Part shown: positions 899 through 41,911 of the stretch, in pieces | How the letters are laid out: each line of letters opens with the position of its first letter | Numbering within the stretch: the stretch's first letter is position 1 | Assembly: GCF_014697545.1 (NCBI RefSeq) | Contig: NZ_JACJSA010000033.1 | Span: 1-41,911, forward strand | From: Oscillatoria sp. FACHB-1407 | GTDB taxonomy: Bacteria; Cyanobacteriota; Cyanobacteriia; Elainellales; Elainellaceae | Reading direction: 5' to 3' | Length of the DNA: 41,911 nt | Notes under the pieces: model-generated | Told to the model about the DNA's origin: nothing | The model's database searches: none | What the model saw: only the letters and a program-made list of their open reading frames with translations | Translations under genes and position numbers: made by a program

Positions 899-945
899 GA
901 TGTTTTCCTTGTGGGATTGCTTTGCTGAATAGGATGCGGTTCAAG

Positions 946-982
946 GTCAGAGCAAGGCTACAATTTACTGACTTGCTCTGAC
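946..982. repeat. perfect 11-bp inverted repeat between two minus-strand genes
   Basis: GTCAGAGCAAG at 946-956 is matched by CTTGCTCTGAC at 972-982, leaving a 15-nt loop. On the plus strand a T-run (about 995-1001) follows 13 bases later; on the minus strand no T-run follows. It may be a transcript-end hairpin for the di-iron gene or an operator dyad for the 95-residue gene. Neither can be decided from sequence. Confidence 0.5.
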
Positions 983-1004
983 GATCGCAGCTGAGTTTTT
1001 TTAA

Positions 1005-1937
1005 TTAGCTGTACTTTTTAGCAACCTCAGCCAATCGGCTTTGGGAAGCCGGGCTCACGTGTGCGAAGGTTTGTACAAACTTAGCGTGGCTAATTCCAGA
1101 CCCAATAAATGTCCACCGATAAGAGCGTTTTTGAATGGTTTGGATTTCTTGTTGTTCCGCCTCAGTGAAAGTGCGTCCTGTTGCGGCGGATAGAGCAGCC
1201 AAATCGAGTTGCACCTGCATCATTAAGCCACCGTCGAGAAACTCAATGAGCTTAAAGAAATCTTCTACTCCGGCTTCTACTTCAGCAGGTTCCAATTCAC
1301 TCACTAACTGATTCACCATTAACGTATCCAGCGTGGTGTGTTGGGCTTCCTCCAGCCAGTGATGTTTTAATAGACTACAAAACTGTGGATCAAGGTTTTC
1401 GCCGACATTATCGCGGACACTAGCGAGATAGTGATACTGAGTCATCCATTCGATGTAAAGGATGATTAACGCGACTCCTAGGGGACGATGTTGTAAAACT
1501 GCGTTGGCGATTTCTTGAACAGGTCCAATTCCATCACAACGACCACCAAAGCCGATTTCAAACTCTTCAGCAAAACGGCGAAATAGCCGAATATGCTTGC
1601 TTTCTTCCTCCGCAAAATGGAGTAATGCTTGAGTGGCAGTAATATCAGCCAGCCCAGTGCTGTTGACGTGGTTGATGACGGTGGGTACGATGAACTCTTC
1701 TACCAGGCCAAACAGGTGTAAATAGCTGTTGCCTCGAATCTGATTGAGAAGTTGTTTTTCTTCAGTGTTAAGACAAGAAATTTCATTCACTTGCGCCAAT
1801 GCGTCTGGTAGAAACCGTGTTGTGAAGTCCAGTTTTTTGTCTCCACCAATGATGTCTTCAACCCTCCAATTGACCTGAGTTGCGCGTTGAAGAGATTGTG
1901 CATAACCTTGGTTAGGGTTAGTTGCGATCGCAGTCAT
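1005..1937 (-). CDS. ferritin-like di-iron protein, AurF-type oxygenase candidate
   Basis: The 310-residue protein shows two ExxH signatures of a ferritin-like four-helix di-iron centre: E112-SK-H115 (in FAEEESKHIRLFRRF) and a second in HHWLEEAQHTTLD. Further acidic residues stand in LVEEFIVP (E80/E81) and in YIEWMTQYHYL. The arrangement fits the AurF/p-aminobenzoate N-oxygenase family of non-haem di-iron enzymes, which use O2 to oxidise amines or related substrates. The substrate is unknown. The start is set by GGAG six bases before the ATG at 1937. No export signal is seen, so it is probably cytoplasmic. A 374-bp non-coding stretch precedes it. Confidence 0.75.
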   Translation of the reverse strand: MTAIATNPNQGYAQSLQRATQVNWRVEDIIGGDKKLDFTTRFLPDALAQVNEISCLNTEEKQLLNQIRGNSYLHLFGLVEEFIVPTVINHVNSTGLADITATQALLHFAEEESKHIRLFRRFAEEFEIGFGGRCDGIGPVQEIANAVLQHRPLGVALIILYIEWMTQYHYLASVRDNVGENLDPQFCSLLKHHWLEEAQHTTLDTLMVNQLVSELEPAEVEAGVEDFFKLIEFLDGGLMMQVQLDLAALSAATGRTFTEAEQQEIQTIQKRSYRWTFIGSGISHAKFVQTFAHVSPASQSRLAEVAKKYS

Positions 1938-2311
1938 TGTTGTTCTCCAAAATAAATCAGTGATGAGTATTTGATGAAATAGTCTTGAGGAATCAAGAAA
2001 ACCATCTCTTTTGTTGTTCTGTTCTCAGGTTATTCAGTCTCCTGTCCTGGAACCGTCCAAGAATCGTCCGAACTTCATTCCGAGGGACTTTGGGCACAAA
2101 AAAGCCTCTATAGCAAAGTGGGGAACCTTGCCAATCGATTCACTTGATGCACCTTGAAAACAAGCTGAAAACTTGAGACTGCAAGGATTTTAGGCGTTGA
2201 GTTAAACTCCCTTCCCTGGCATAGCTCTATCTTGGGCGATCGCTCTTTAAAAGTCGTGAGAGCAGAGTCTCAATCTGTTGCTGTAGTTCTGTCAGAAATC
2301 ACCCGATCGGG
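1938..2311. other. 374-bp intergenic region, no gene seen
   Basis: It separates two minus-strand genes. It must hold the promoter of the di-iron gene and the transcript end of the LuxR-type gene, but no clear -10/-35 pair or strong hairpin stands out. No long open frame or dispersed repeat of the kinds found elsewhere in the window was recognised. Confidence 0.4.
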
Positions 2312-3466
2312 CTAGGACTCAAGTCCCATACCTGTGCCAAACCCTGCATTTCTCGCTTTGACGATCGCCTCTGCACGGGTCTTGACCTGCATTTTGCTGA
2401 AGATATGAGTGATGTGATTTTTAACCGTTTTGGGACTGAGTACCAACTGTTCGCTGATTTGAGTGTTACTTAACCCCTGAGCAATCAGTTCAAGAATTTC
2501 TTGTTCGCGATCTGTAAGAACTTGGGTCAGTTCAAGACGCATTGAATCGGGTTGAACATCAGTAGTTGGGAATACGACAGCAGTTTCATCAGGCTTGATC
2601 GACGCAGGATTGAGTGAAGCCACACGATCGGGTTGAATAAATTGTTGTACTTCCTTTAGAAACCTCTGCCACGCTGGTTCATGGTTGAGCAGGATGTGAT
2701 TTTTGCTATCTAGTGGCACAAACTGAGCATTGGGAATCAGAGCTGCCAGCAATCGCCCTTGATCAAAGGTTATTTCCACTTCATGTTGAGCATGGAGAAC
2801 AAGCGTGGGTACTGTGACCTGAGTTGCCAGGTCACACACATCAGTACTGTTGAAGAGATGGATAAACTTCGCTGCATTATCAGGAGACGTGGAAATTTTC
2901 TGAAGTTCATTAAAGGCGTTGAGTTGCTCTAAGGTGCCTTCGGGAATGAAGAGTGAGGTAAACAATTGGCGAAATGCTGGATTATCACGCCCCCACCCCA
3001 GTTGAACGAGTTTGGCGCGAATTTCGGCTTCTTCAACCTGTTCACGTGTGGCATTGCGTTTGAGGCGACCCTGGGCATAGCCTCCATAGAGGATGAGGTG
3101 GCTAACTTTTTCTGGGTGCTTGACCGCATAGGCGATCGCCACCCCTGCTCCTTGAGAAATTCCCAGTAATGCAAAGCGTTCGAGTTTCACTGTATTGATG
3201 ACCGTCTCCAAATCCTGCACCCAGGCATCGAAGGAAAAGTTAGGCACATTCCAATCTGATAAACCGCACCCTCGCTCATCGTAGCGAACCACGGTAAACC
3301 GCTTTGATAGCTCCTCCCACCAATGTCTCCAAACGGGACTCTGCCAGTCAAACTCTAAATGGCTAAGCCAGTTCGCCGCTTTCACCAGCGGATAACCTTG
3401 CCCGGTCATAGCATAGGCAAGATTGACATGATCTGGGGTTAGACAAAAGTGAATGCTTTGCTCCAT
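2312..3466 (-). CDS. alpha/beta hydrolase-LuxR fusion transcriptional regulator
   Basis: The 384-residue protein joins an alpha/beta hydrolase domain (about residues 10-275) to a LuxR/NarL helix-turn-helix at the C-terminus (LTDREQEILELIAQGLSN through TVKNHITHIFSKMQV). The nucleophile elbow GISQGAG, the RYDERGCGLSDW segment and a terminal His in KNHILLNHEP give a plausible Ser-His-Asp triad. Such fusions are thought to sense or hydrolyse a small molecule and control transcription directly; the ligand is unknown. The ATG at 3466 (MEQSIHFCL) is preferred over an upstream TTG because family members start there. It sits just downstream of the 3506-3904 gene on the same strand, so the two may be co-transcribed. 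Confidence 0.85.
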   Translation of the reverse strand: MEQSIHFCLTPDHVNLAYAMTGQGYPLVKAANWLSHLEFDWQSPVWRHWWEELSKRFTVVRYDERGCGLSDWNVPNFSFDAWVQDLETVINTVKLERFALLGISQGAGVAIAYAVKHPEKVSHLILYGGYAQGRLKRNATREQVEEAEIRAKLVQLGWGRDNPAFRQLFTSLFIPEGTLEQLNAFNELQKISTSPDNAAKFIHLFNSTDVCDLATQVTVPTLVLHAQHEVEITFDQGRLLAALIPNAQFVPLDSKNHILLNHEPAWQRFLKEVQQFIQPDRVASLNPASIKPDETAVVFPTTDVQPDSMRLELTQVLTDREQEILELIAQGLSNTQISEQLVLSPKTVKNHITHIFSKMQVKTRAEAIVKARNAGFGTGMGLES

Positions 3467-3505
3467 TGGTTGAACTCGAAAGAACAATTGACGCAACAGA
3501 GATAC

Positions 3506-3904
3506 TCAATCTGGTTTAACCAGAGTGGACTTCCAAACTTGTTGGAAGGGTTGTCCAATTTTACGATAGAGCGATCGCACATCCTCAGCAACCACAGCCG
3601 TAAACACACAAATGGAATAGGAGCCATTGAGCATGACCGCAGAAAGGAGAGGCTGAACATTTAACTCCTGAAAACACTCCTTTTCTTGAAGCTTGGCAGA
3701 CTCATATATGGCTTTAGTAATCGGAGGGTCATACCGAACTTCTGCAACAATCAAAGCGGAACCCTGGGGTAATGTTGTTGGATCACGATCTTGCCAGAGA
3801 TCGGCCTGCCACACACGCTCAAAGGGCATTCGAGCCTCTCGGCAGGCTTCTCGCATCAAATTGGAGTAGGAAAGCTGAAATAGGCAAATGGAGCGATCGC
3901 CCAC
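3506..3904 (-). CDS. hypothetical protein with internal repeat
   Basis: This is a 132-residue frame with protein-like composition. Two related stretches, MPFERVWQADLWQ near the start and QPFQQVWKSTLV near the end, suggest an internal duplication or symmetric ends. The central part (SALIVAEVRYDPP, LLSAVMLNGSYSICVFTAVV) looks like beta strands. No family is recognised. The ATG at 3904 has no clear ribosome site and a later ATG at 3856 is possible. It ends 40 bases before the hydrolase-LuxR start and may form an operon with it. A competing plus-strand frame over 3772-4260 looks like a shadow. Confidence 0.5.
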   Translation of the reverse strand: MGDRSICLFQLSYSNLMREACREARMPFERVWQADLWQDRDPTTLPQGSALIVAEVRYDPPITKAIYESAKLQEKECFQELNVQPLLSAVMLNGSYSICVFTAVVAEDVRSLYRKIGQPFQQVWKSTLVKPD

Positions 3905-4216
3905 TCAGAAGATGTGGCTGGACGGCAGCGATTTTCGAGTGGCTACAAACTGCCCTGTCTCCGGTCTCGATTGTCGAACTCAGTTGTAGTTTGGAGATGC
4001 CCTCAGTAGAGATATGCTTGGGTGTATTGTTCGGCGGTTCTCAGTTAGAGCAGCGACGAGGTTTTGAGGTCGCCTGGAACTTTATCTTCCTTCACCACAA
4101 AAATGTAGTCATTGGAAGACCTTCAGAAAATTCACCCAGAAGCTTTATTTTCTGGAGTTTGGCAAGCGATATACTTTGGGAGACCGATGACAGCCCTTCG
4201 TCGGGGGAAGAGTTCA
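3905..4216. other. divergent intergenic region ahead of the giant kinase
   Basis: This 312-bp gap lies between the minus-strand small gene and the kinase. A TATACT hexamer at 4170-4175 could be a -10 box for the kinase with a leader of about 35 bases, though the matching -35 is weak. A frame open from 4112 would extend the kinase by 35 residues, but that extension looks unlike the family. No other gene is supported here. Confidence 0.35.
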
Positions 4217-12727: not shown

Positions 12728-12755
12728 AATCTGGAAGCAGTCAAGCATTGGAACT
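12728..12755 (+). promoter_or_regulatory. 28-nt conserved motif, copy 1 (candidate AraC-type operator)
   Basis: It begins AATCTG and ends TTGGAACT with 14 bases between. The same spacing and most intervening bases recur at 14616-14643 and 22275-22302. TTGGAA also makes a possible -35, with TAGATA 16 bases downstream. It lies 40 bases before the NTF2-like gene at 12795. Confidence 0.55.
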
Positions 12756-12794
12756 CAAGACACTTTAGATAGATAAAACCAGGAGTATTTAATC

Positions 12795-13379
12795 ATGGTC
12801 AAAGAGCAAACTGTAGACGGACAAGCAAATTTACAAGCAACTACCAACTTGACAGCCCAGGAGTCTTTGCAAGCACTTTGGGAAGAGCATTTACAGTACG
12901 AGTTTGGCACTCACAGTACTGAAGATGCCCTCGCTACGATGGTTGAAGATGCTTACGTTAACCACATCCCTGTAATGACTGGGGGAGTTGGGAAACCAGC
13001 ACTGCGCGAGTTTTATTCCAAATACCTCATTCCACAGATGCCGCCAGATATGGAGTTGACCCTAATCTCGCGCACGATCGGAACCGATCAACTCGTGGAT
13101 GAAATGGTGGCTAAGTTTACTCATACTGTTTGGATGGAATGGATATTACCCGGCGTTGCTCCCACTGGAAAACGGGTGGAAGTGCCAGTAGTAGCGATCG
13201 TCCAGTTCCGTGACGGCAAAATAGCCCACGAACACATTTACTGGGATCAGGCAAGTGTATTGGTTCAAGTCGGCTTGCTCGATCCGGGTACACTTCCCGT
13301 CGTGGGCGTTGACAGTGCGCGTAAGGTAATCGATCCCAACTTACCTTCAAACACACTAATCGATCGCGTTTTGACGTAA
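12795..13379 (+). CDS. NTF2/SnoaL-like protein, copy 1
   Basis: 194 residues with an NTF2-like cone fold pattern: helical start (SLQALWEEHLQYEFG), VNHIPVMTGG, LREFYSKYLIPQMP, and strand-rich TLISRTIGTDQLVDEMVAKF and VPVVAIVQFRDGKIAHEHIYWD. The family includes small polyketide cyclases, isomerases and many proteins without known reaction. A strong ribosome site (CCAGGAG) lies upstream. A near-identical copy is at 19586-20167. The SDR follows after 34 bases, so the two form an operon-like pair. The last codons (VLT) and stop run into a segment conserved before both SDR copies. Confidence 0.85.
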   Translation: MVKEQTVDGQANLQATTNLTAQESLQALWEEHLQYEFGTHSTEDALATMVEDAYVNHIPVMTGGVGKPALREFYSKYLIPQMPPDMELTLISRTIGTDQLVDEMVAKFTHTVWMEWILPGVAPTGKRVEVPVVAIVQFRDGKIAHEHIYWDQASVLVQVGLLDPGTLPVVGVDSARKVIDPNLPSNTLIDRVLT

Positions 13380-13413
13380 GTAACATAACCATTCACAACA
13401 AGAGGTCACTATC

Positions 13414-14160
13414 ATGATGCTTAAAGACAAGGTTGCTTTAGTCACTGGTGGTACATCGGGCATTGGTCGTGCAACCGCGATCGCTTATGCCCAACAACAA
13501 GCCAAGGTGGTGGTGGTGGGTCGCCGAATGGATGAAGGTGAAGAAACGGTTCGATTAATCAAGGAAGCTGACGGAGAGGCGATTTTTGTGCAAGCCGATG
13601 TCACGAAAGAAGCCGATGTCAAAGCAATGGTTGATAAAACGGTTAACGTTTTTGGTCGGTTGGATATTGCCTTTAATAATGCAGGAATGGGCAGCGAAAA
13701 TCCCTCATTGATTGAGCAAACAGAAGCGGAATACGATCGCACGATGAACGTCAATGTCAAGGGCGTTTGGTTGTCGATGAAATATGAAATCGCTCAGATG
13801 TTGAAACAGGGAAATGGTGCAATCGTCAATATGGCATCTGTGGTTGGAGTCGTTGCACTGCCTAACATACTCCTCTACACCGCGAGTAAACATGCGGTGG
13901 TAGGCTTAACCAAAGCGGCTGCACTCCAATATGCCAAAGCGGGGATTCGCATCAATGTCGTTGCACCAGGGGCAATCCAAACAGATATGTTTGAAGCAGT
14001 TACAGATGAAGCCAAAGCTTACTTGACAGGACTTCACCCGATCGGACGAGTTGGAACACCGCTTGAAGTTGCAAATGCAGTTCTGTTTTTATCATCTGAC
14101 CTGGCATCGTTCACAACAGGTGAAACGTTGATGGTAGATGGCGGTTATGTAGCACAGTAG
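13414..14160 (+). CDS. short-chain dehydrogenase/reductase (SDR), copy 1
   Basis: 248-residue classical SDR: TGGTSGIG at 11-18 (cofactor binding), NNAG at 88-91, and catalytic S142, Y155 and K159 in YTASK, ending GETLMVDGGY. R37-R38 after strand two favour NADP(H). The substrate is unknown; neighbours suggest carbonyl or quinone detoxification. GAGGT lies upstream of the start. The second copy at 21277 is about 86% identical over the first 160 residues by hand count. The HTH-only AraC gene follows. Confidence 0.93.
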   Translation: MMLKDKVALVTGGTSGIGRATAIAYAQQQAKVVVVGRRMDEGEETVRLIKEADGEAIFVQADVTKEADVKAMVDKTVNVFGRLDIAFNNAGMGSENPSLIEQTEAEYDRTMNVNVKGVWLSMKYEIAQMLKQGNGAIVNMASVVGVVALPNILLYTASKHAVVGLTKAAALQYAKAGIRINVVAPGAIQTDMFEAVTDEAKAYLTGLHPIGRVGTPLEVANAVLFLSSDLASFTTGETLMVDGGYVAQ

Positions 14161-14249
14161 CCGAGCGGCAATGCAAAATATTGCAGTGCTCGAATGTGCG
14201 ATGGCTAGCTTTTGCCTGTTTTGTTAAGCAAATTGCCAATCTTTGAACC

Positions 14250-19491: not shown

Positions 19492-19585
19492 TAAAAACGC
19501 GCTGCTATTTTTCTCTGTTCTGATGCTACGAGCTACATCACAGGTTACTCAACACTTTAGATAGATAAACCAGGAGTATTTAATC

Positions 19586-20167
19586 ATGGTCAAAGAGCAA
19601 ACTGTAGACGGACAAGCAAGTTTACAAGCAACTACCCATCTGACACCAGCCCAGGAGTCTTTGCAAGCACTTTGGGAAGAGCATTTACAGTACGAATTTG
19701 GCACTCGCAGTACTGAAGATGCCCTCGCTACGATGGTTGAAGAGGCTTACGTTAACCACATCCCGGTAATGATTGGGGGAGTTGGGAAACCAGCACTGCA
19801 CGAGTTTTATTCCAAATACCTCATTCCACAGATGCCGCCAGATATGGAGTTGACCCTAATCTCGCGCACGATCGGAACCGATCAACTCGTGGATGAAATG
19901 GTGGCTAAGTTTACTCATACTGTTTGGATGGAATGGATATTACCCGGTGTTGCTCCCACTGGAAAACGGGTTGAATTGCCAGTAGTTGCGATTATTCGGT
20001 TTCGTGACGGCAAAATAGCCCACGAACACATTTACTGGGATCAGGCAAGTGTATTGGTTCAAGTCGGCTTGCTCGATCCGGGTACACTTCCCGTCGTGGG
20101 CGTTGATAGTGCGCGTAAGGCGATCAATCCCAACTTACCTTCAAACACACTAATCGATCGCGACTAA
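19586..20167 (+). CDS. NTF2/SnoaL-like protein, copy 2
   Basis: 193 residues, nearly the same as the gene at 12795, with long identical DNA blocks (for example about 19850-19940). The upstream ACACTTTAGATAGATAAA and CCAGGAG stretch is also shared. Differences are a few substitutions and one inserted residue (HLTPAQES against NLTAQES). Its end differs: the copy-1 codons before the stop are replaced after CGATCGCG by ACTAA. The lost tail sequence (TTTTGACGCAAGTAAC) reappears at about 21233 before SDR copy 2. A 1.07-kb segment therefore separates the parts. Confidence 0.85.
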   Translation: MVKEQTVDGQASLQATTHLTPAQESLQALWEEHLQYEFGTRSTEDALATMVEEAYVNHIPVMIGGVGKPALHEFYSKYLIPQMPPDMELTLISRTIGTDQLVDEMVAKFTHTVWMEWILPGVAPTGKRVELPVVAIIRFRDGKIAHEHIYWDQASVLVQVGLLDPGTLPVVGVDSARKAINPNLPSNTLIDRD

Positions 20168-20202
20168 GTACTGTGATTCACAGATAGGGTTTGGAGATAA
20201 AA

Positions 20203-20275
20203 CCAGGGGGGTGTGGGGGCTGCGCCCCCAGCCAGGGGTTCCACCCCTGCACCCCAAATTCCCACCCTTATTTAT
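20203..20275. repeat. G/C hairpin repeat (GGGGGCTGCGCCCCC type), copy 1
   Basis: GGGGGCTGCGCCCCC at about 20215-20230 is a perfect short hairpin, followed by AGGGGTTCCACCCCT, a second one. Together they form a dispersed element also seen in inverse orientation at 30190-30243. It follows the NTF2 copy 2 stop and could also end its transcript. Confidence 0.7.
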
Positions 20276-20310
20276 GACGAGTTGTACTAAGTGTAGGAGT
20301 CAGCAAATAT

Positions 20311-20424
20311 CAATGCCTAAACCCGCCATTTTGCAACCAGGATCGCAACTCGCCTGACCCAGCTACGTTCTATACCCGTGGTGAAAAAGGCTATCTGGAT
20401 TATTCAGCCCTAGCAAAAGTTTAG
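20311..20424 (+). pseudogene. possible relic of an unidentified gene 3' end
   Basis: A frame reads SPDPATFYTRGEKGYLDYSA then LAKV and a stop, which looks like a protein C-terminus without a start. It lies 26 bases before the flavodoxin-fold gene. The family is not recognised, and chance cannot be excluded. Confidence 0.3.
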
Positions 20425-20449
20425 AAACTTAGAAAACGAGATAACTCAC

Positions 20450-21118
20450 ATGAAAGTTTTGATTGTTCTTGCACACCCAGAGCCGAAAAGTTTTAACGGA
20501 GCAATGTTTCAGACAGCAATTGACACGTTCAAAGACTCTGGGCATGAGGTTCAATATTCAGATCTCCACACCATGGGATTTGACCCTGCATCCGATCGCC
20601 GCAACTTTACGTCTGTCAAAGATCCTGACTACTTTAAGCAGCAACTTGAAGAGATGTATGCCATTGAAGTTGGAGGATTCATTCCAGAAATTGAAGCTGA
20701 GCTCCAAAAACTGGAATGGTGCGATCTGATGATTTGGCAATTCCCTTTGTGGTGGTTCAGTGTCCCTGCAATTTTGAAGGGGTGGGTCGATCGCGTCTTT
20801 GTTATGGAGCGTGTTTACGGTAGTGGACATATGTATGAAACGGGCAGATTTCGAGGTAAGCAAGCAATGCTCTCGTTGACCACAGGTAGCACAGAAGAGG
20901 AGTATCTTGCAGGCGGTTTTAACGGTGATATCCATGCTATTCTGCGCCCAATTCAGCGAGGGATGCTGCAATTCGTTGGCTTTGACGTTCTTGCTCCGCA
21001 GATTGTCTATGCCCCCGTTCGCCAAACAGATGCAGTTCGTCAACGTATCTTGAATGATTTTTCGCAACGATTGCGAACCATTGAACGTGAGTTGCCGATC
21101 GCCGTAGGTCAGTATTGA
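20450..21118 (+). CDS. NAD(P)H:quinone oxidoreductase, flavodoxin-like fold
   Basis: 222 residues. MKVLIVLAHPEPKSFNGAM is the FMN/FAD phosphate-binding start of the NQO1/MdaB/KefF group, and WCDLMIWQFPLWWFSVPAILKGWVDRVF is its substrate-pocket and dimer segment, with LSLTTGS for the flavin ring. The probable reaction is two-electron reduction of quinones, which avoids semiquinone radicals. It sits inside a segment that interrupts the NTF2-SDR pair of copy 2, so it was probably inserted with its own upstream DNA. Confidence 0.92.
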   Translation: MKVLIVLAHPEPKSFNGAMFQTAIDTFKDSGHEVQYSDLHTMGFDPASDRRNFTSVKDPDYFKQQLEEMYAIEVGGFIPEIEAELQKLEWCDLMIWQFPLWWFSVPAILKGWVDRVFVMERVYGSGHMYETGRFRGKQAMLSLTTGSTEEEYLAGGFNGDIHAILRPIQRGMLQFVGFDVLAPQIVYAPVRQTDAVRQRILNDFSQRLRTIERELPIAVGQY

Positions 21119-21228
21119 TCGGCATGGAACTGGCGGGACTGGATTTATGGGGCACGCAGCCAGGATCGTACTCATCCCGGTTGTAGAAGGCGTTTCTTAT
21201 TGCTGGCTCCTACAGGTATTGCTCATTG

Positions 21229-21276
21229 AGTTTTTGACGCAAGTAACATAACCATTCACAACAAGAGGTCACTATC
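21229..21276 (+). repeat. duplicated upstream segment of SDR copy 2
   Basis: From TTTTGACGCAAGTAAC through AACAAGAGGTCACTATCATG this matches 13370-13416 before SDR copy 1 almost base for base. In copy 1 the first bases are the last codons of the NTF2 gene, so here they are a leftover of that gene end. Confidence 0.8.
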
Positions 21277-22032
21277 ATGATGTTTAAAGACAAGGTTGCT
21301 TTAGTGACGGGAGGGACATCGGGAATTGGTAGAGCAACCGCGATCGCCTATGCCCAACAACAAGCAAAGGTAGTGGTGGTGGGTCGTCGAATTGACGAAG
21401 GTAAAGAAACAGTTCGATTGATTCAAGAAGCTGGTGGAGAGACGATTTTTGTGCAAGCCGATGTCACGAAAGAAGCCGATGTTGAAGCAATGGTTGATAA
21501 AGCGGTTAGCGTTTTTGGTCGGTTAGATATTGCTTCTAACAATGCAGGAACGATCGGCGAAAATCCCTCTTTGATTGAGCAAACAGAAGCGGAATACGAT
21601 CGCACGATGAACGTCAATGTTAAAGGCATTTGGTTGTCGATGAAGTATGAAATTGCTCAGATGTTGAAACAGGGAAGTGGTGCGATCGTCAATACGGCAT
21701 CTGCGAATGGAGTCGTTGCATTTCCTGCCTTCCCCCTCTACACTGCGAGTAAAAGTGCAGTCATAGGCTTAACAAAAGCGGCTGCGCTTCAATATGCCAA
21801 AGCGGGGATTCGCATCAATGTCGTGGCACCAGCGGTAATCGAAACAGAGATGTTTGAAGCAGCGACAGGTGGGCAGGATGAGGTCAAAGCTTATATAACA
21901 GGACTCCACCCGATCGGGCGAATTGGCACGCCGCTTGAAGCTGCAAATGCAATCCTGTTTTTATCATCTGACCTGGCATCGTTCACAACAGGTGAAACAT
22001 TGATGGTAGATGGTGGGTATGTAACGCAATAG
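21277..22032 (+). CDS. short-chain dehydrogenase/reductase (SDR), copy 2
   Basis: 251-residue classical SDR with TGGTSGIG (11-18), NNAG (88-91), S142, Y155, K159 and terminal GETLMVDGGY. It is paralogous to the gene at 13414; changes cluster around the substrate side (ASANGVVAFPAFPLYTASK against ASVVGVVALPNILLYTASK) and a three-residue insertion (ATGGQDEVKAY) in the lid loop. The substrate range may thus differ from copy 1. GAGGT ribosome site. An AraC relic follows its stop, mirroring the SDR-AraC order of copy 1. Confidence 0.93.
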   Translation: MMFKDKVALVTGGTSGIGRATAIAYAQQQAKVVVVGRRIDEGKETVRLIQEAGGETIFVQADVTKEADVEAMVDKAVSVFGRLDIASNNAGTIGENPSLIEQTEAEYDRTMNVNVKGIWLSMKYEIAQMLKQGSGAIVNTASANGVVAFPAFPLYTASKSAVIGLTKAAALQYAKAGIRINVVAPAVIETEMFEAATGGQDEVKAYITGLHPIGRIGTPLEAANAILFLSSDLASFTTGETLMVDGGYVTQ

Positions 22033-22038
22033 TCGATT

Positions 22039-22103
22039 GGCAGTGCGAAATGTTTGATACAGCACTTCAAGCGACTCACTAAGAGAATGCCTGAGAAGTA
22101 TCT
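22039..22103 (+). pseudogene. relic of an AraC regulator C-terminus after SDR copy 2
   Basis: The frame reads GSAKCLIQHFKRLTKRMPEK, matching the AraC ending SHLTQHIKRFTGKTPKQ. Only about 20 residues survive, and a palindromic repeat begins at 22118. Its position right after the SDR equals that of the intact AraC gene at 14250. Confidence 0.55.
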
Positions 22104-31521: not shown

Positions 31522-32034
31522 GTGAAAATCAATAAAACCTTAATGGAATCCTTTCGAGTAATGACTGCAATTCAACCAAAACCAATGTTACTGAGTGCCA
31601 CTCTGCAATCTACTGCGATTGAAAATCGCCCTGCTCAGGTCGCTTGGACAATTGCACGAGTGGCGGTGGGCTTACTAATGATCCACAACGGATTTAGCAA
31701 ACTGGCAGATGTGCAGGGGTTTGCAGACGGAGTTGTAAGTTTTATTGGCTTGCCTTACCCGGTTTTCTTCACCTATTGTGCTGCCTACGCTGAAATTGTG
31801 AGTTCGATTCTGCTGGTAGTTGGATTATTCTCTCGGCTCAACGCCTTAATCTTGCTATTTACCATGCTGATTGCAATATTCTTTCATCTCAAAAAAGATG
31901 GCTTGCACATTCCCCCATTGGAAACGGCTTCCCTGTATGCCCTGTGGTTTAGCTTCTTCTTGACCAATGGTGGCGGGTTATTCTCCCTCGATACGGCGAT
32001 CGCAAATTGGTTGGGGAGATCCACGTCTCCGTAA
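31522..32034 (+). CDS. DoxX family membrane protein
   Basis: 170 residues, four membrane spans: ARVAVGLLMIHNGFSKLADV, PVFFTYCAAYAEIVSSILLV, SRLNALILLFTMLIAIFFHL and SLYALWFSFFLTNGGGLFSL. The HNGFSKL and Glu in YAEI fit DoxX, whose members work with quinone- or thiol-linked redox reactions at the membrane. The start is uncertain: GTG 31522, or ATG at 31543 or 31561; none has a strong ribosome site. It is the last gene of the accessory region, compatible with the quinone theme. Confidence 0.85.
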   Translation: MKINKTLMESFRVMTAIQPKPMLLSATLQSTAIENRPAQVAWTIARVAVGLLMIHNGFSKLADVQGFADGVVSFIGLPYPVFFTYCAAYAEIVSSILLVVGLFSRLNALILLFTMLIAIFFHLKKDGLHIPPLETASLYALWFSFFLTNGGGLFSLDTAIANWLGRSTSP

Positions 32035-35800: not shown

Positions 35801-36053
35801 TCAATCATTAAAATTGCAACGCTGCTTGTCATTCATCTTTGGAGAAACTGAGAGGACTTGAGGTATTGCATCATACATTTTTCAGTTCCAGCCATTTGCA
35901 GCACCTGGAACAAACCTGGAACTTTGATCCAAAACGTTACAAAAACAGGTTGAACTTTTGGTATCGACATCCCTTCAACCCAATCTGATAATGCGGTCAC
36001 TTGCACTTTGTAAGCACTTCGTCAGCCATGATTGTTGCTAAGAGGATTCGCCC
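35801..36053. promoter_or_regulatory. divergent promoter region with an 11-bp direct repeat
   Basis: The region separates the STAND gene from the BMP operon. ACCTGGAAC occurs at 35903-35911 and again at 35914-35922, one helical turn apart, a possible regulator site. AAGAGGA precedes the BMP start. No clear -10/-35 pair is asserted. Confidence 0.4.
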
Positions 36054-37247
36054 ATGACTCAACATCGTTTTCCATTTACCCGTCGTCAGGTCATTCGAGG
36101 ACTGCTGGCAACTGGAGCCTTTGGTGCAACCTCCCACCTGTGGACGGGTTGTTCATCTACTCCAACGGCTAGTACTGGAGAAACGACAACATCTCCTGGT
36201 AGTGCGGCAGAACCCCTGGTGATGGGATTCATTTATGTGGGTCCCAAAGACGACTATGGTTGGAACCAGGCACACGCCGAAGGAGCCTCTGGAGTGGCGA
36301 AGGTTTCTGGAGTCAAAGTCGTGGAAGAAGCCAGTGTGCCTGAGACGACTGCGGTTGCTGAAACCATGCGAGGCATGATCGTTCAAGATGGCGCGAAAGT
36401 TTTATTTCCCACCTCATTTGGTTACTTCGATCCGCATATTTTGGAGTTAGCGAAGGAATTTCCAGAGGTGCAGTTTTTCCACTGTGGCACGCTGTACGAG
36501 GAAGGCAAACATCCCGCCAACGTGGGCAGCTATTTTGGATTTATTGATCAGGCATACTACATTGCTGGAACGGTTGCCGCGCATACGTCTAAAACAGGCA
36601 AGCTGGGCTTTGTTATGGCAAAACCGATTCCTCGAATTGTGCGTACACTCAATAGCTGGATGCTAGGGGCGAAATCGGTTAATCCCAGTGCCACCACTCA
36701 ACTCATCATCACAGGTGCATGGACTGACCCGGTCAAAGAAGCGGAAGCCGTGAACAGCATGGCAGATCAGGGAGTCGATGTCGTCACCTGCAACGTAGAC
36801 AATGCCAAAGTCGTGATGGAGACCGCAGAAAAACGCAGCATCTTTTGCAGCGGCAATGCGGTAAACCAGTCTGCCGTAGCTCCCAAAGGGTATCTCACAG
36901 GGGCTGAATGGGATTGGACGGGGGTTTACTCTAGCTACGCCAAGATGATTCAGGAGGGCAAAACACTGATGAATGGCGGTATTCCCCACACATATTTGGG
37001 CGGCTTAAAGGATAATTTCGTCAAGCTGTCACCCTATGGAGCAGCCGTCAGTGAGACAGCCAAACAAGATGCCGAAACCGCCAAAACTGGATTGTTAGAT
37101 GGCTCCCTGGTGGTCTACAAGGGAGAATTGAAAGACAATACGGGTAAAGTTGTGATCCCCACTGGAACGGAATACAAGCCGGGTGATCCTGAACTTGAAA
37201 AAATGGATTGGCTGGTTGAAGGGGTAATCGGACAAATCACCGCTTAA
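36054..37247 (+). CDS. BMP family ABC transporter substrate-binding lipoprotein
   Basis: 397 residues. A twin-arginine leader (TRRQVIRGLLATGAFG) runs into a lipobox ending at C33 (HLWTGC), so the protein is a Tat-exported lipoprotein. Mature part: VMGFIYVGPKDDYGWNQAHA, VLFPTSFGYFD, FGFIDQAYYIAGTVAAHTSK, GVDVVTCNVDNAKVVMETAE and AEWDWTGVYSSYAKM, the BMP/PnrA purine-nucleoside-binding fold. Ligands of this family are nucleosides, xanthine-type bases or related heterocycles. Two permeases follow directly. Confidence 0.93.
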   Translation: MTQHRFPFTRRQVIRGLLATGAFGATSHLWTGCSSTPTASTGETTTSPGSAAEPLVMGFIYVGPKDDYGWNQAHAEGASGVAKVSGVKVVEEASVPETTAVAETMRGMIVQDGAKVLFPTSFGYFDPHILELAKEFPEVQFFHCGTLYEEGKHPANVGSYFGFIDQAYYIAGTVAAHTSKTGKLGFVMAKPIPRIVRTLNSWMLGAKSVNPSATTQLIITGAWTDPVKEAEAVNSMADQGVDVVTCNVDNAKVVMETAEKRSIFCSGNAVNQSAVAPKGYLTGAEWDWTGVYSSYAKMIQEGKTLMNGGIPHTYLGGLKDNFVKLSPYGAAVSETAKQDAETAKTGLLDGSLVVYKGELKDNTGKVVIPTGTEYKPGDPELEKMDWLVEGVIGQITA

Positions 37248-37262
37248 CGGAAATTGTTCACC

Positions 37263-38411
37263 ATGTTGCGTCGTTGGCGTTCCGTTTTAGAGTCCATTTG
37301 CATCCCAGTCGGGGCGATCGCCCTTGCCCTTCTCCTATTTGGTTTGTTCTGTGCCATTCAGGGATACAACCCCTTGGCGATCTATGCTTCCATTTACAAG
37401 GCAGCCTTTGCCTCCTGGTTTTCTTGGCAAAATACCTTAATTCGTTCAGCCCCTTTAATGCTGAGTGCCCTCTGTACCGTCCTCCCGGCTCGGTTGGGAT
37501 TAATCGTGATTGGCAACGAAGGTGCGTTGGTCTTAGGCGGGTTAATGGCAGCCGTGACCGGATTGGGAATGGCAAAGGCACCGCCTCTGATCGCACTGCT
37601 GGCGATGGCGATCGCAGGCATCACAGTAGGTGGACTGTGGATCATGCTGGTTGGGGCATTGCGTCACTACCGAGGGGTGAATGAGACCATCAGTAGTTTG
37701 CTGTTGAACTATGTGGCGATCGCCTTCCTCAACCATATGGTTGAGGGCCCCTGGCGAGATCCCAGTTCGCTCAACCAACCCTCCACCTATCCATTAGCAG
37801 AGGCTTTGCAACTGGGGGACTTTCCCGGTTCTCGGATTCATTACGGGCTGCTGTACGGGTTGGTGGTGTGTGCGATCGCCTATGTCCTGATTCAACGCAC
37901 CACCTTCGGTTTTGCGATTCGCACCGTTGGCGGCAATATTCGCGCCGCCCGAATTGCTGGACTCGCGGTTGGCAAACTGACCTTAGCCATTTGCTTTCTG
38001 GCAGGCTCCTGTGCCGGATTGGCAGGCATGGTGGAAGTGGCAGCCGTACATGGACGGGCAAATGGCGCGCTCCATTCAAACTATGGCTATACCGGAATTT
38101 TGGTTGCTTTTGTGGCGAAACAGAATCCCTTAGCCGTTGTTCTAGTCTCTACTTTGTTAGGCGGTATCTTAGCCAGCGGCAGCATTTTGCAACGCGCTCA
38201 TGGAATGCCCGATGCGACGGTTCTAGTCTTTCAAGGCTTGATCTTCCTGGTGATTCTGTATAGTGAGTCGCTTTACGGTCAGCTTCCCTGGTTTCAAGAA
38301 CCCGCCATCATCGATGATGACGCGGTTGCTTCGCAGTTCCCCGAAGGGGTAATCGCCCCTGCTCAACCCCTTGATCCGCTTTCGTCTACCGTGCAAGGAG
38401 TTCATCAATGA
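37263..38411 (+). CDS. ABC transporter permease (nucleoside/BMP type), subunit 1
   Basis: 382 residues, about nine or ten membrane spans. Family features: FWSWQ-like ASWFSWQNTLIRSAPLML, VLPARLGLIVIGNEGALVLG, YRGVNETISSLLLNYVAIAF, GFAIRTVGGNIRAARIAGLA and GANGALHSNYGYTGILVAF-like end. It is the YufP/RbsC-like permease of nucleoside importers. ATG 37263 follows GGAA; a TTG at 37254 is in frame. It overlaps subunit 2 by 4 bases (ATGA), indicating translational coupling. Confidence 0.92.
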   Translation: MLRRWRSVLESICIPVGAIALALLLFGLFCAIQGYNPLAIYASIYKAAFASWFSWQNTLIRSAPLMLSALCTVLPARLGLIVIGNEGALVLGGLMAAVTGLGMAKAPPLIALLAMAIAGITVGGLWIMLVGALRHYRGVNETISSLLLNYVAIAFLNHMVEGPWRDPSSLNQPSTYPLAEALQLGDFPGSRIHYGLLYGLVVCAIAYVLIQRTTFGFAIRTVGGNIRAARIAGLAVGKLTLAICFLAGSCAGLAGMVEVAAVHGRANGALHSNYGYTGILVAFVAKQNPLAVVLVSTLLGGILASGSILQRAHGMPDATVLVFQGLIFLVILYSESLYGQLPWFQEPAIIDDDAVASQFPEGVIAPAQPLDPLSSTVQGVHQ

Positions 38412-39337
38412 CCCCTGAATCTCTCGGTTGGTGGGGTGTGCCCCTGGCAATTCTAGGTGGCTTACTGCGGGGCAGTGTTCCCTTTTTGTTTGTCAGTTTA
38501 GGAGAATGTTTGACGGAAAAAAGCGGCAAGATCAATCTGGGTTTAGAAGGAACTTTGCTGATGGGTGCGATGAGTGCCTACGCCGTTTCCTATCACACCG
38601 GATCACCCTGGCTAGGGGTTGTTTGTGCCGGAGTTGCCGGAATGGGGTTAGGTGCCATTCATACCTGGCTCGTGCAACAGCGCAGAGTCAACGATATTTC
38701 TGTGGGCATTGCCATGATGCTCTTTGGAGGTGGGTTAGCCTTTTACATTGGTAAGCCTTACATTCAACCGATCGCCCCCCAGTTGCTTGCCATTCGTTTT
38801 GGAGAGTGGAGCCATTTACCGCAAGTCAAATCTGCGTTAATGATCAGTCCATTGCTTTTGTTAGGACTGGCGATCGCCCCTCTGATGCAGTGGTTCTTCA
38901 CCTCTACGCGATGGGGCTTGATGGTGCGAGCGGTGGGAGAAAGTCCAGCCGCAGCCAGGGCGATGGGAATTCCTGTTCGTCGGGTACAGGCACTGTGCAT
39001 TGTCTTTGGCAGCTTTTTAGCGGGAGTGGCAGGATCTTACCTGTCCCTCTACTTTCCGGGGAGCTGGAACGAAAATATTTCCAGTGGACAGGGGCTGATT
39101 GCAGTCGCGCTAGTGATTTTTGCTCGTTGGAATCCGATGCAGTGTCTCTACGCCGCACTTCTATTTGGTGGAACTCAGGGATTAGGTCCCGCTTTGCAAT
39201 CGGTGGGGGTGGACTCCTATTACTACGTGTTTAATTCCATACCCTATGTGCTGACGCTGGCGGTCATGGTGTTGACGTGTTCTCCCACAAGAGCTTCCGT
39301 TGGTGCACCAGAGTCATTAGGGAAACCCAGTGAATAG
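38408..39337 (+). CDS. ABC transporter permease (nucleoside/BMP type), subunit 2
   Basis: 309 residues, about eight membrane spans: GSVPFLFVSLGECLTEKSGK, INLGLEGTLLMGAMSAYAVS, RRVNDISVGIAMMLFGGGLA, RWGLMVRAVGESPAAARAMG and GQGLIAVALVIFARWNPMQC. It is the YufQ-like partner of subunit 1, and together they form the channel for the BMP lipoprotein. AAGGAG lies at 38395-38400, just before the ATG. After its stop comes a palindromic repeat and then the amidohydrolase, not the expected ATPase. Confidence 0.92.
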   Translation: MTPESLGWWGVPLAILGGLLRGSVPFLFVSLGECLTEKSGKINLGLEGTLLMGAMSAYAVSYHTGSPWLGVVCAGVAGMGLGAIHTWLVQQRRVNDISVGIAMMLFGGGLAFYIGKPYIQPIAPQLLAIRFGEWSHLPQVKSALMISPLLLLGLAIAPLMQWFFTSTRWGLMVRAVGESPAAARAMGIPVRRVQALCIVFGSFLAGVAGSYLSLYFPGSWNENISSGQGLIAVALVIFARWNPMQCLYAALLFGGTQGLGPALQSVGVDSYYYVFNSIPYVLTLAVMVLTCSPTRASVGAPESLGKPSE

Positions 39338-39388
39338 CAAACGACTGTGTACACATAAGCCCAGACTGACTTCGTTTAAGCCTTTTTT

Positions 39389-39457
39389 GCCCCCTAAATC
39401 CCCCAATTCCGGGGGACTTCCGGAGAGGTTCCCCCCAGAATTGGGAGGCTAGGGGGC
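39389..39457. repeat. C/G-run palindromic element, copy 3
   Basis: GCCCCCTAAATCCCCCAATT, GGGGGACTTCC, then GGTTCCCCCCAGAATTGGGA and CTAGGGGGC. Same layout as 22118-22190 with small changes in the loops. It lies between the permease and the amidohydrolase and could attenuate read-through. Confidence 0.85.
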
Positions 39458-39497
39458 AGTTCGACGGATATGAGTAGTTAAAAGTAGATAAGTAGAC

Positions 39498-40715
39498 ATG
39501 GGACTGGATACCTTCGACCTGTTGATCCAGCAAGCTAAGTTGCCGGATGGATCATTGGCTCAAGTTGCGGTTAAAAGTGGACGCATTCATGCGATCGCGC
39601 CTCCTGATCAAAATCTTGGCACAGCTAAGGAAAAGCTGGATATACAAGGCAACTTGCTTTGTCCCGGTTTGGTTGATGGACATATTCATCTGGACAAAAC
39701 TTTCTGGGGCACGTCCTGGCAATCGCATATTCCAGGGAACACCGTGCGGCAGCGGGTTGAAATCGAAAAACAGATGCTTCGAGAAATCAAAGTTCCGGTT
39801 GAGGAACGGGCTTCCCGTTTAACAGAACTGGCAATTCAACAAGGGACGACGCTAATTCGCACGCACGTAGACATTTATCCTGAAGTTGGCTTACGCAATT
39901 TAGAAGGGGTGCTTACAGTCCGCGATCGCTATCGAGATTTTGTTGATATTCAGATCGTTGCTTTTCCCCAAAGCGGCTTACTCTCTTGCCCGGGAACCCT
40001 GGAACTATTAGACGCTGCTCTATCTGAAGGGGCTGATTTAATCGGTGGACTTGACCCCGCAGGCATTGATCAAGATGTGAGCGGACATCTTCATGAGATT
40101 TTTCGTCTGGCAGACAAGCACGGCGTTAGCATTGACATCCACCTACACGACCCCGGTCATTTAGGCATTTACGAACTTGAGCAGATTGCCCAACGGACGA
40201 TCGCAACCGGAATGCAAGGGCGCGTTGCCGTCAGCCATGCCTACTGTTTAGGGATGGTGCCCTCGGATCTGGCAGATGTAACCGCAGAAAAATTAGCCAA
40301 CGCTGCGATCGCTATCATGACCAATGCACCAGGACATCATCCCTTTCCTTCGATTGCTCGTTTGCGGCAAGCAGGGATTACGGTCTTTTCAGGATCTGAT
40401 GATGTCCGCAATGCCTGGTGTCCTTTCAGTAACGCCGACATGTTAGAACGAGCCATGCTGATTGCCTACCGTTCTAACTTTTTAACGGACGCTGATCTCA
40501 TGACTGCCTTTGACATGATTACCATTGGCGGCGCAACGGTTTTAGGAATAGAAAAGTACGGCTTACAAAAAGGGGCGATCGCTGATTTTGTTGTCCTGGC
40601 GGCTGGCTCAATACCAGAGGCGATCGCCACACGCGCATCTCGCAAATATGTTATTAAACGTGGACACATTACCGCGAAAGAAGACAAACTGCTTGCGTCA
40701 ATCACATGCGTTTGA
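39498..40715 (+). CDS. cytosine deaminase-like amidohydrolase
   Basis: 405 residues of the metal-dependent amidohydrolase superfamily: LLCPGLVDGHIHLDKTFWG (H62, H64), RTHVDIYPEVG, SIDIHLHDPG, VSHAYCLG and SGSDDVRNAWCPF (catalytic Asp). The order and motifs fit cytosine/N-isopropylammelide/isoxanthopterin-type deaminases acting on pyrimidine, purine or triazine-like rings. Placement after a nucleoside-type importer suggests deamination of the imported base as a nitrogen source. The ATG at 39498 has no strong ribosome site. Confidence 0.9.
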   Translation: MGLDTFDLLIQQAKLPDGSLAQVAVKSGRIHAIAPPDQNLGTAKEKLDIQGNLLCPGLVDGHIHLDKTFWGTSWQSHIPGNTVRQRVEIEKQMLREIKVPVEERASRLTELAIQQGTTLIRTHVDIYPEVGLRNLEGVLTVRDRYRDFVDIQIVAFPQSGLLSCPGTLELLDAALSEGADLIGGLDPAGIDQDVSGHLHEIFRLADKHGVSIDIHLHDPGHLGIYELEQIAQRTIATGMQGRVAVSHAYCLGMVPSDLADVTAEKLANAAIAIMTNAPGHHPFPSIARLRQAGITVFSGSDDVRNAWCPFSNADMLERAMLIAYRSNFLTDADLMTAFDMITIGGATVLGIEKYGLQKGAIADFVVLAAGSIPEAIATRASRKYVIKRGHITAKEDKLLASITCV

Positions 40716-40765
40716 AGTACCTCACTCAAATTGCCAAACAGGAGGGCTTCGCTCGCCAGCCATAG
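40714..40765 (+). pseudogene. 52-bp gene-end relic, copy 1
   Basis: The frame reads KYLTQIAKQEGFARQP then TAG. It matches 41729-41780 at 45 of 52 bases; the seven differences give two silent codon changes and three mild replacements (T/S, K/R, A/T), the pattern of once-coding sequence. It lies across the end of the amidohydrolase in another frame. Confidence 0.6.
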
Positions 40766-40794
40766 CTGTCATTTAACACGCTTTTTGACCACTC

Positions 40795-41592
40795 TTAACA
40801 CTTAAATTTTTTCCACTGATTGGGCGGTGGGGTGAGAAACTCGTATGCTCCTGCAACATCTCCTGTGGCTGTCAATACAATGTCAAACGACAGAGACAGA
40901 CGTAACTCCTGAGTTTCGTTCATGCTAACGGCATGACGTTGCTTTGCTGGAAAGATTAGCAACCGCCCTTCGACAGGCGGGTAAGCCACATAAAGCTGAT
41001 TGAGATCGTTCTCTGCATCGACGATGTCTGTGTTTTCACTGCCCAATCCCGGACACACCTCATTCACCCGTGCATCATTGAAAAAAAGCAGGCTCCCTGG
41101 GTCGCTCACCTCATCCGTGGGCACTTGAATGTAGTAAACCGCGCTGACGTGAGCCGTGTTATGGCAATGCGCCCCAACTTCCTGCCCGGTGCGAGAGACA
41201 ATGGGCCATGCTCTTTGAATGTATAAATCGACTTTGCTGAGATCTACACCGATGTTTTCAAGATACGTCGTTGTGTGCTGCTCAACCTGTTCCACAATCC
41301 AGCTAAAAGCTGGATGAGTATGAATTTGATTGACACCGTGAATATCTCCCGTCCACGCCATCTCATTATAATTCTGAGGTTCGATCCCTTCCTGCTCTAA
41401 ATCCAGGACTGCTTCAATCAAAGGCTGTCGATGTTCCGAAGCATCTGGCAAATCCTCATAATAAATCGCTAGCGGAAACCAGGTTTCAATGGGCATCTTG
41501 ATTGATGTAACGACTGTCTCCAGTTTTGCACTAGATTGCCACCTTTGTTGGGTGTTGTTGCATGAAAGAGGGGGTACGGATGGGAAAGACAT
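40795..41592 (-). CDS. 2OG-Fe(II) oxygenase-like protein (TIGR02466 type)
   Basis: 265 residues. From residue 33 it reads MPIETWFPLAIYYEDLP, usual for the family start, then GVNQIHTHPAFSWIVEQV, GAHCHNTAHVSAVYYIQVP, PGSLLFFNDAR, LLIFPAKQRHAV and RLSLSFDIVL. The first His pair, the late His and the Arg are consistent with a jelly-roll 2OG-Fe(II) site; the substrate is unknown. The true start may be ATG 41496 instead of 41592, where GGGAG is only three bases from the ATG. It is flanked by two copies of a 52-bp relic in the opposite orientation, suggesting insertion as a unit. Confidence 0.8.
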   Translation of the reverse strand: MSFPSVPPLSCNNTQQRWQSSAKLETVVTSIKMPIETWFPLAIYYEDLPDASEHRQPLIEAVLDLEQEGIEPQNYNEMAWTGDIHGVNQIHTHPAFSWIVEQVEQHTTTYLENIGVDLSKVDLYIQRAWPIVSRTGQEVGAHCHNTAHVSAVYYIQVPTDEVSDPGSLLFFNDARVNEVCPGLGSENTDIVDAENDLNQLYVAYPPVEGRLLIFPAKQRHAVSMNETQELRLSLSFDIVLTATGDVAGAYEFLTPPPNQWKKFKC

Positions 41593-41728
41593 CTTCTCCC
41601 AAGCGTACCAAGTTACCCGTTGAATACCTTGAAATTTGCCAAGTTTTTCAAACGTGCTGAGGACGATGGATTAAAGAGAGGTCATAAATTCCCCATGCTC
41701 TGGACTCCGATTCCTTGTCCAAGAACAC

Positions 41729-41780
41729 GAAGTACCTTTCCCAAATTGCCAGACAAGAGGGCTTCACCCGCCAGCCATAG
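41729..41780 (+). pseudogene. 52-bp gene-end relic, copy 2
   Basis: The frame reads KYLSQIARQEGFTRQP then TAG, preceded by DSLSKNT in the same frame. It is the partner of 40714-40765. The original gene is not recognised. Confidence 0.6.
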
Positions 41781-41911
41781 TCCTGGGAATTGCCGACTGC
41801 AAAAAATGCCTTCCGGGTGCGCCGCTTTCAAGGGGCGGAATTTTGGCTAACCGTTCTGCGGTCATGGCAGGAGATCAGGCGAGTCAGGTGGTTGCTTTTC
41901 ATGCTAGCAGT
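41781..41911. other. window end, no gene supported
   Basis: Nothing beyond the relic at 41729-41780 is recognised. A 76-codon plus-strand frame over 41620-41850 crosses the relic in the wrong frame and is rejected. Confidence 0.3.

Follow-up and report, generated by a model that had tools for sequence, protein, structure and literature searches.

Background

Two described systems come closest to the locus reported here. Uma2/DUF820 proteins (PF05685, putative restriction endonucleases) form the first; the family is high in copy number, or expanded, in some Thermosynechococcus strains according to the accessible text of one report (PMC9403480), and another paper mentions DUF820 once (PMC2246100). 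The genome studied here likewise has many matches to the family, 43 in all, among which the remnants described below are not counted. Telomeric transposons are the second system, and their likeness concerns one short segment. They are said to carry end repeats, a telomere resolvase and transposase genes, and to be bounded by an end and a telomere.

We analysed a window of 41,911 nucleotides that makes up an entire contig (C33; NZ_JACJSA010000033.1) of Oscillatoria sp. FACHB-1407 and that ends inside the right-hand repeat unit. Near this end, apparent remnants of Uma2 genes lie on both sides of a 2OG-Fe(II) oxygenase gene. They align to the N- and C-terminal parts of intact Uma2 members and, in contrast to these, have neither the nuclease domain nor an intact reading frame. 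In the accessible part of the literature, our search found nothing published that ties Uma2 scraps to such an oxygenase locus. The features of the locus are as follows.

39498..40715, plus strand: amidohydrolase gene (PF07969, E 4.8e-39), last of a BMP-type binding protein/permease/permease/amidohydrolase run
40714..40766, minus strand: left Uma2 scrap, LWLASEALLFGNLSEVL, truncated at both ends and covering about 17 codons of the C-terminal tail
40767..40801, plus strand: 35-bp putative scar starting TGTCATTTAACACGC, directly after the left Uma2 scrap, matching G017:C249:9035-9069
40795..41592, minus strand: 2OG-Fe(II) oxygenase gene, as listed (PF13759, E 8.4e-21)
41595..41911, minus strand: right Uma2 pseudogene unit, 317 bp to the contig end, 98% to C46:1-317 of the same genome
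41821..41865, minus strand: Uma2 residues 1-15, MTAERLAKIPPLESG (tblastn 100%, E 2.1e-6)
41709..41822, minus strand: Uma2 residues 172-209, in another frame, holding the repeat 41729-41780 (tblastn 84%, E 3.9e-18)
41674..41706, minus strand: Uma2 residues 211-221, the C-terminal end (tblastn 82%, E 0.004)

Results

Two direct repeats and their extent

The preliminary description of this DNA had reported two direct 52-bp copies, 45 of 52 bases alike, and the pair was found exactly so, at 40714-40765 and 41729-41780. It is the longest among five direct-repeat families listed for positions 36000-41911. Self-BLAST of the window gives the pair an E value of 2.5e-10 (other repeat pairs exist elsewhere, some of them stronger) and a simple binomial gives 8e-20 per pair, with about 1.8e9 ordered pairs; the similarity is therefore not due to chance. 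A repeat search for inverted repeats of at least 20 nt found none touching either copy, and an inverted-repeat element was rejected on this ground. Elsewhere in the window, 12753-14182 and 19547-22054 hold a duplicated gene pair, by appearance a SnoaL-like and a short-chain dehydrogenase gene, with 95% and 87% DNA identity.

In its own genome the 52-bp sequence has three good places, namely the two window copies and contig C46. The last 322 bases of the window have matches in 6 of 146 genomes, its own included. Among the five others, G010, G050 and G026 have a match that takes in the 52 bp and falls within or across a Uma2 gene; in G021 it overlaps the end of the 52 bp only, again in a Uma2 gene, and G128 yielded a 29-base match only. 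Given these few places and the position of the relatives' matches in Uma2 genes, the sequence is not a widespread non-coding repeat.

The coding strand

Translated from the minus strand, the two copies read LWLA[S/G]EALL[F/S]GNL[S/G][E/K]VL, which is the C-terminal tail of Uma2 proteins. In G010 and G050 the repeat DNA sits in an intact 221-residue gene, antisense to the plus strand of the window and with a PF05685 match of E ~1e-32 (1.1e-32 for the G010 protein), and it falls within the C-terminal tail of that gene. When the G010 protein was compared by tblastn with positions 40600-41911 only (the last 1,312 bases), the minus strand matched residues 1-15, 172-209 and 211-221 in the right copy, spread over two frames, and residues 186-203 in the left copy; five further matches, with E values from 0.017 to 5.8, were weaker and put down to chance. 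Homology to Uma2 is thus present in the right pieces as well as in the left scrap. The nuclease domain, for which the Pfam match corresponds to residues 25-189 of the intact protein, is absent as such, since the right copy is without residues 16-171 and the left copy keeps only about 186-202. No intact Uma2 frame is left either, the right pieces lying in two frames and the left one amounting to 17 codons. Judged by these alignments, both repeats are remnants of the Uma2 C-terminal tail, coding on the minus strand.

The repeats had previously been viewed as ends of a plus-strand gene, KYLxQIAxQEGFxRQP, that was duplicated locally and then lost around an inserted oxygenase gene. That they once were coding holds; the strand and the peptide do not, the real frame being the minus-strand Uma2 tail. 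Both copies do close the plus-strand frame with TAG and differ at few of its residues, and in G010 no stop interrupts this frame until far upstream. Against it, the same DNA runs antisense within intact Uma2 genes, and in the G050 homologue the motif is broken by a stop (KYLP*IARQ). A plus-strand gene end was rejected, and the account as a whole, its local duplication included (see below), is very improbable.

The left scrap and the amidohydrolase gene

The TGA stop of the amidohydrolase gene arises where the Uma2 scrap starts, with T at 40713 and GA at 40714-40715. Alignments with the relatives in G037, G092 and G055 reach residues 392, 399 and 401 of 405, and the C-termini differ in two of these three. 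Close relatives of the amidohydrolase (E up to 1e-60) occur in three other genomes of the 146 searched; there the window DNA beyond the gene fails to align, and neither an empty site nor an intermediate was seen. The BMP-type binding protein, two permease and amidohydrolase genes are consecutive in 36054-40715, with no ABC ATPase gene between them.

Over its 53 bp the left scrap is identical to the intact Uma2 genes at 50/53 positions in G010 and 49/53 in G050, and to the right copy at 45/53; its tblastn match to the G010 protein has an E value of 3.8e-6. Five sites separate the right copy and C46 from G010 and G050. At four of them the left copy agrees with G010 and G050, at none with the right copy and C46, and at the remaining one it matches neither group. 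The left copy is nearer to genes of other genera than to its neighbour. A local duplication, as proposed earlier, therefore probably does not relate the two copies, a moderate inference drawn from 53 bp and few sites. Since both copies hold the same Uma2 segment, they do not represent the two parts of a single gene divided by the oxygenase gene.

The right unit and the contig ends

The right copy keeps approximately residues 1-15 and 172-221 of Uma2, the middle being absent. The same internal deletion, at 98% identity, is carried by C46:1-317, and contig C46 begins with that copy. In G010 and G050 the match to the end of the window is interrupted by about 480 bp without a counterpart in the window. 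By this comparison the right copy is a pseudogene with a frameshift and an internal deletion, the latter common to the second copy in the genome.

Contigs C33 and C46 terminate at the same base of the unit, and C57 and C62 share another end base, about 120 bp further along the unit of G010. The simplest reading of these ends is one collapsed repeat omitted from the assembly. A palindrome at the ends of C33 and C46 was considered and dropped, as the two pairs end about 120 bp apart in the way a collapsed repeat would. On C62 the unit match runs for 148 bp and the next one, of about 210 bp, follows some 3.3 kb on, so this copy is broken up. The two C62 pieces are in direct orientation with other genes between them, a second case of scraps around foreign genes.

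Could the right unit be a non-autonomous derivative of a mobile unit carrying Uma2, one that lost its middle yet went on being copied? The two copies in the genome have the deletion in common and begin at one and the same left limit; G010 and G050, which belong to different families, have 1,389 bp in common at 89%, non-coding DNA included; and C57, with 91% identity to G050, carries the unit on for 828 bp. However, the picture would be no different after a segmental duplication or simple horizontal transfer, the pieces on C62 favour decay over a clean mobile unit, and the assembly does not contain the middle of the unit. We regard this derivation as unlikely. A source in the plasmid collection was rejected, as it held no match for 41590-41911 and none for 40767-41600. 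A gene that we call DoxX-like by appearance lies near the intact Uma2 gene of G010 (L014 147-659); the same gene is present in the window at 31522-32034, about 9 kb from the left scrap.

The oxygenase gene

A minus-strand PF13759 gene was found between the repeats, in agreement with the reversed oxygenase gene reported there before. Its start is likely the ATG at 41496, as used in relatives. Relatives at E up to 1e-15 occur in 24 of 146 genomes, its own included, and the proteins from G003, G006, G017 and G023 are 91-95% identical to it. The DNA common to the window and these four begins at 40801, the point at which the window diverges, and reaches 41531-41573. In the flanks none of the four aligns with the window on either side, and among themselves they share at most about 20 bp beyond the gene block. 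Given such identity in unlike surroundings in five genomes, the oxygenase gene has moved in this family. The C-terminus in the window has been replaced, reading KFKC* in place of the KFKSDH* or KFKTDH* of three relatives; in G017 the end is altered as well.

The same evidence of movement might be taken to mean that the repeats act as the functional borders of an oxygenase cassette that moves, be they direct repeats, recombination sites or attachment sites. Yet none of 19 oxygenase loci from other genomes (flanks of up to 1.5 kb) matches the repeats or the Uma2 unit, so we rejected the idea that the repeats accompany the oxygenase gene in general. Moreover, 7 of the 52 bases are not the same in the two copies, and an unrelated 35-bp scar stands between the left copy and the oxygenase gene. 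A cassette of this kind is hardly credible.

The 35-bp scar

The scar sequence, searched as a pattern with one R, is found without mismatch at G017:C249:9035-9069 and has one copy in its own genome. At up to three mismatches it occurs in 2 of 142 genomes, its own and G017, the latter with two more places at three mismatches. Alignment of the scar region to G017 spans 37 bp at 97%, and about 35-41 bp match in all.

In G017 this sequence starts with TGT just upstream of the oxygenase gene and opens a repeat-rich stretch, in which TTAACACATTAAATGTCC-like repeats in both orientations (9063, 9145 and, on the minus strand, 9204) are followed by a telomere-resolvase gene (PF16684, C249 10057-12078). 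The terminal sequence of the scar is thus common to a stretch with end repeats and a telomere resolvase. Genes for TniQ, TniB and a Mu-type transposase lie at 907-3946, on the opposite side of the oxygenase gene, and no hairpin was found at the contig end. In G003 a sequence starting TGTCGCTTAACG occupies the same upstream stretch and is followed by TTAACA-type repeats, a PF16684 gene and the contig end. At that end (C45:16277-16299), about 1.1 kb past the telomere-resolvase gene, there is a 23-bp hairpin-like palindrome with 11-bp arms. G006 has a sequence starting TGTACAGTGAC in this stretch, about 340 bp before the contig end, which may resemble known transposon ends; a PF16684 match is absent from G006. 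Placed in register with the oxygenase gene, the end-like starts of G003, G006 and G017 are at most 22 bp apart. Upstream of the gene in G023 no end-like sequence was seen. When 144 bp upstream were inspected in 8 of 25 oxygenase loci, the two corresponding to G003 and G017 were end-like, and the other six showed no end-like sequence by eye, three of them being checked by motif too.

Telomeric transposons (Hsieh et al. 2025, as cited in the accessible text of PMC12669027) resemble this locus in the scar only. The likeness lies in the TGT start and the repeats ahead of the resolvase gene in G017, and in the similar order in G003 with its palindrome-bearing contig end. In contrast to such elements, the window keeps only about 35 bp; no resolvase, transposase or telomere was seen in it, and the element itself is absent. 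A mobile element associated with linear replicons may have left the scar. From the three close relatives with end-like starts, in two of which (G003, G017) these precede telomere-resolvase genes, one might go further and regard the stretch upstream of the oxygenase gene as a recurrent landing site for telomere-forming elements, the window being a healed scar where a former replicon end was rejoined with 35 bp left behind; we consider this a long shot.

Contig C52 of the same genome starts with a perfect 36-bp palindrome (1-36), followed by a telomere-resolvase gene (454-2433, PF16684); this arrangement makes a linear replicon with hairpin ends probable for the strain. Contig C34 has a second resolvase gene, about 0.7 kb from its end, and no such palindrome is present at that end. 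In the family of the strain, 18 of 36 genomes, its own included, have PF16684 matches, several within about 1 kb of a contig start.

Discussion

Very probably, both repeats are decayed pieces of two different Uma2 genes, functionless and left behind by the turnover of mobile or horizontally moved genes; most likely they have no function of their own. The preliminary description was right in that genes were lost around an insertion, as Uma2 remnants flank an incoming oxygenase gene. The comparison with relatives that it proposed shows oxygenase flanks that differ and repeats that lie in intact Uma2 genes in G010 and G050.

Sequence comparison lets us propose the following course of events. A Uma2 gene ending toward the amidohydrolase gene would have been interrupted at 40766/40767 by a mobile element, of which the first 35 bp remain. 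In a later rearrangement, a short TTAAAT common to both may have served to join the element end to the 3' end of the incoming oxygenase gene, a fusion that would have replaced the last codons of that gene. Separately, the deleted Uma2 unit would have come to lie on the opposite flank of the oxygenase gene. A target-site duplication was not identified at the locus. Ordinary turnover of mobile, horizontally moved genes is the likely driver of these steps, and their order, like the steps, is put forward on the same comparison.

The locus is ordinary genome debris, scraps of a large known family beside a mobile oxygenase gene, and the scar is its only curious part. As found, it carries little weight beyond correcting an error of strand and showing that short, coding-looking repeats in cyanobacteria can be Uma2 scraps. 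If the reading of the scar as a rejoined replicon end is true, the locus would be a small model for the healing of replicon ends made by telomere-linked elements.
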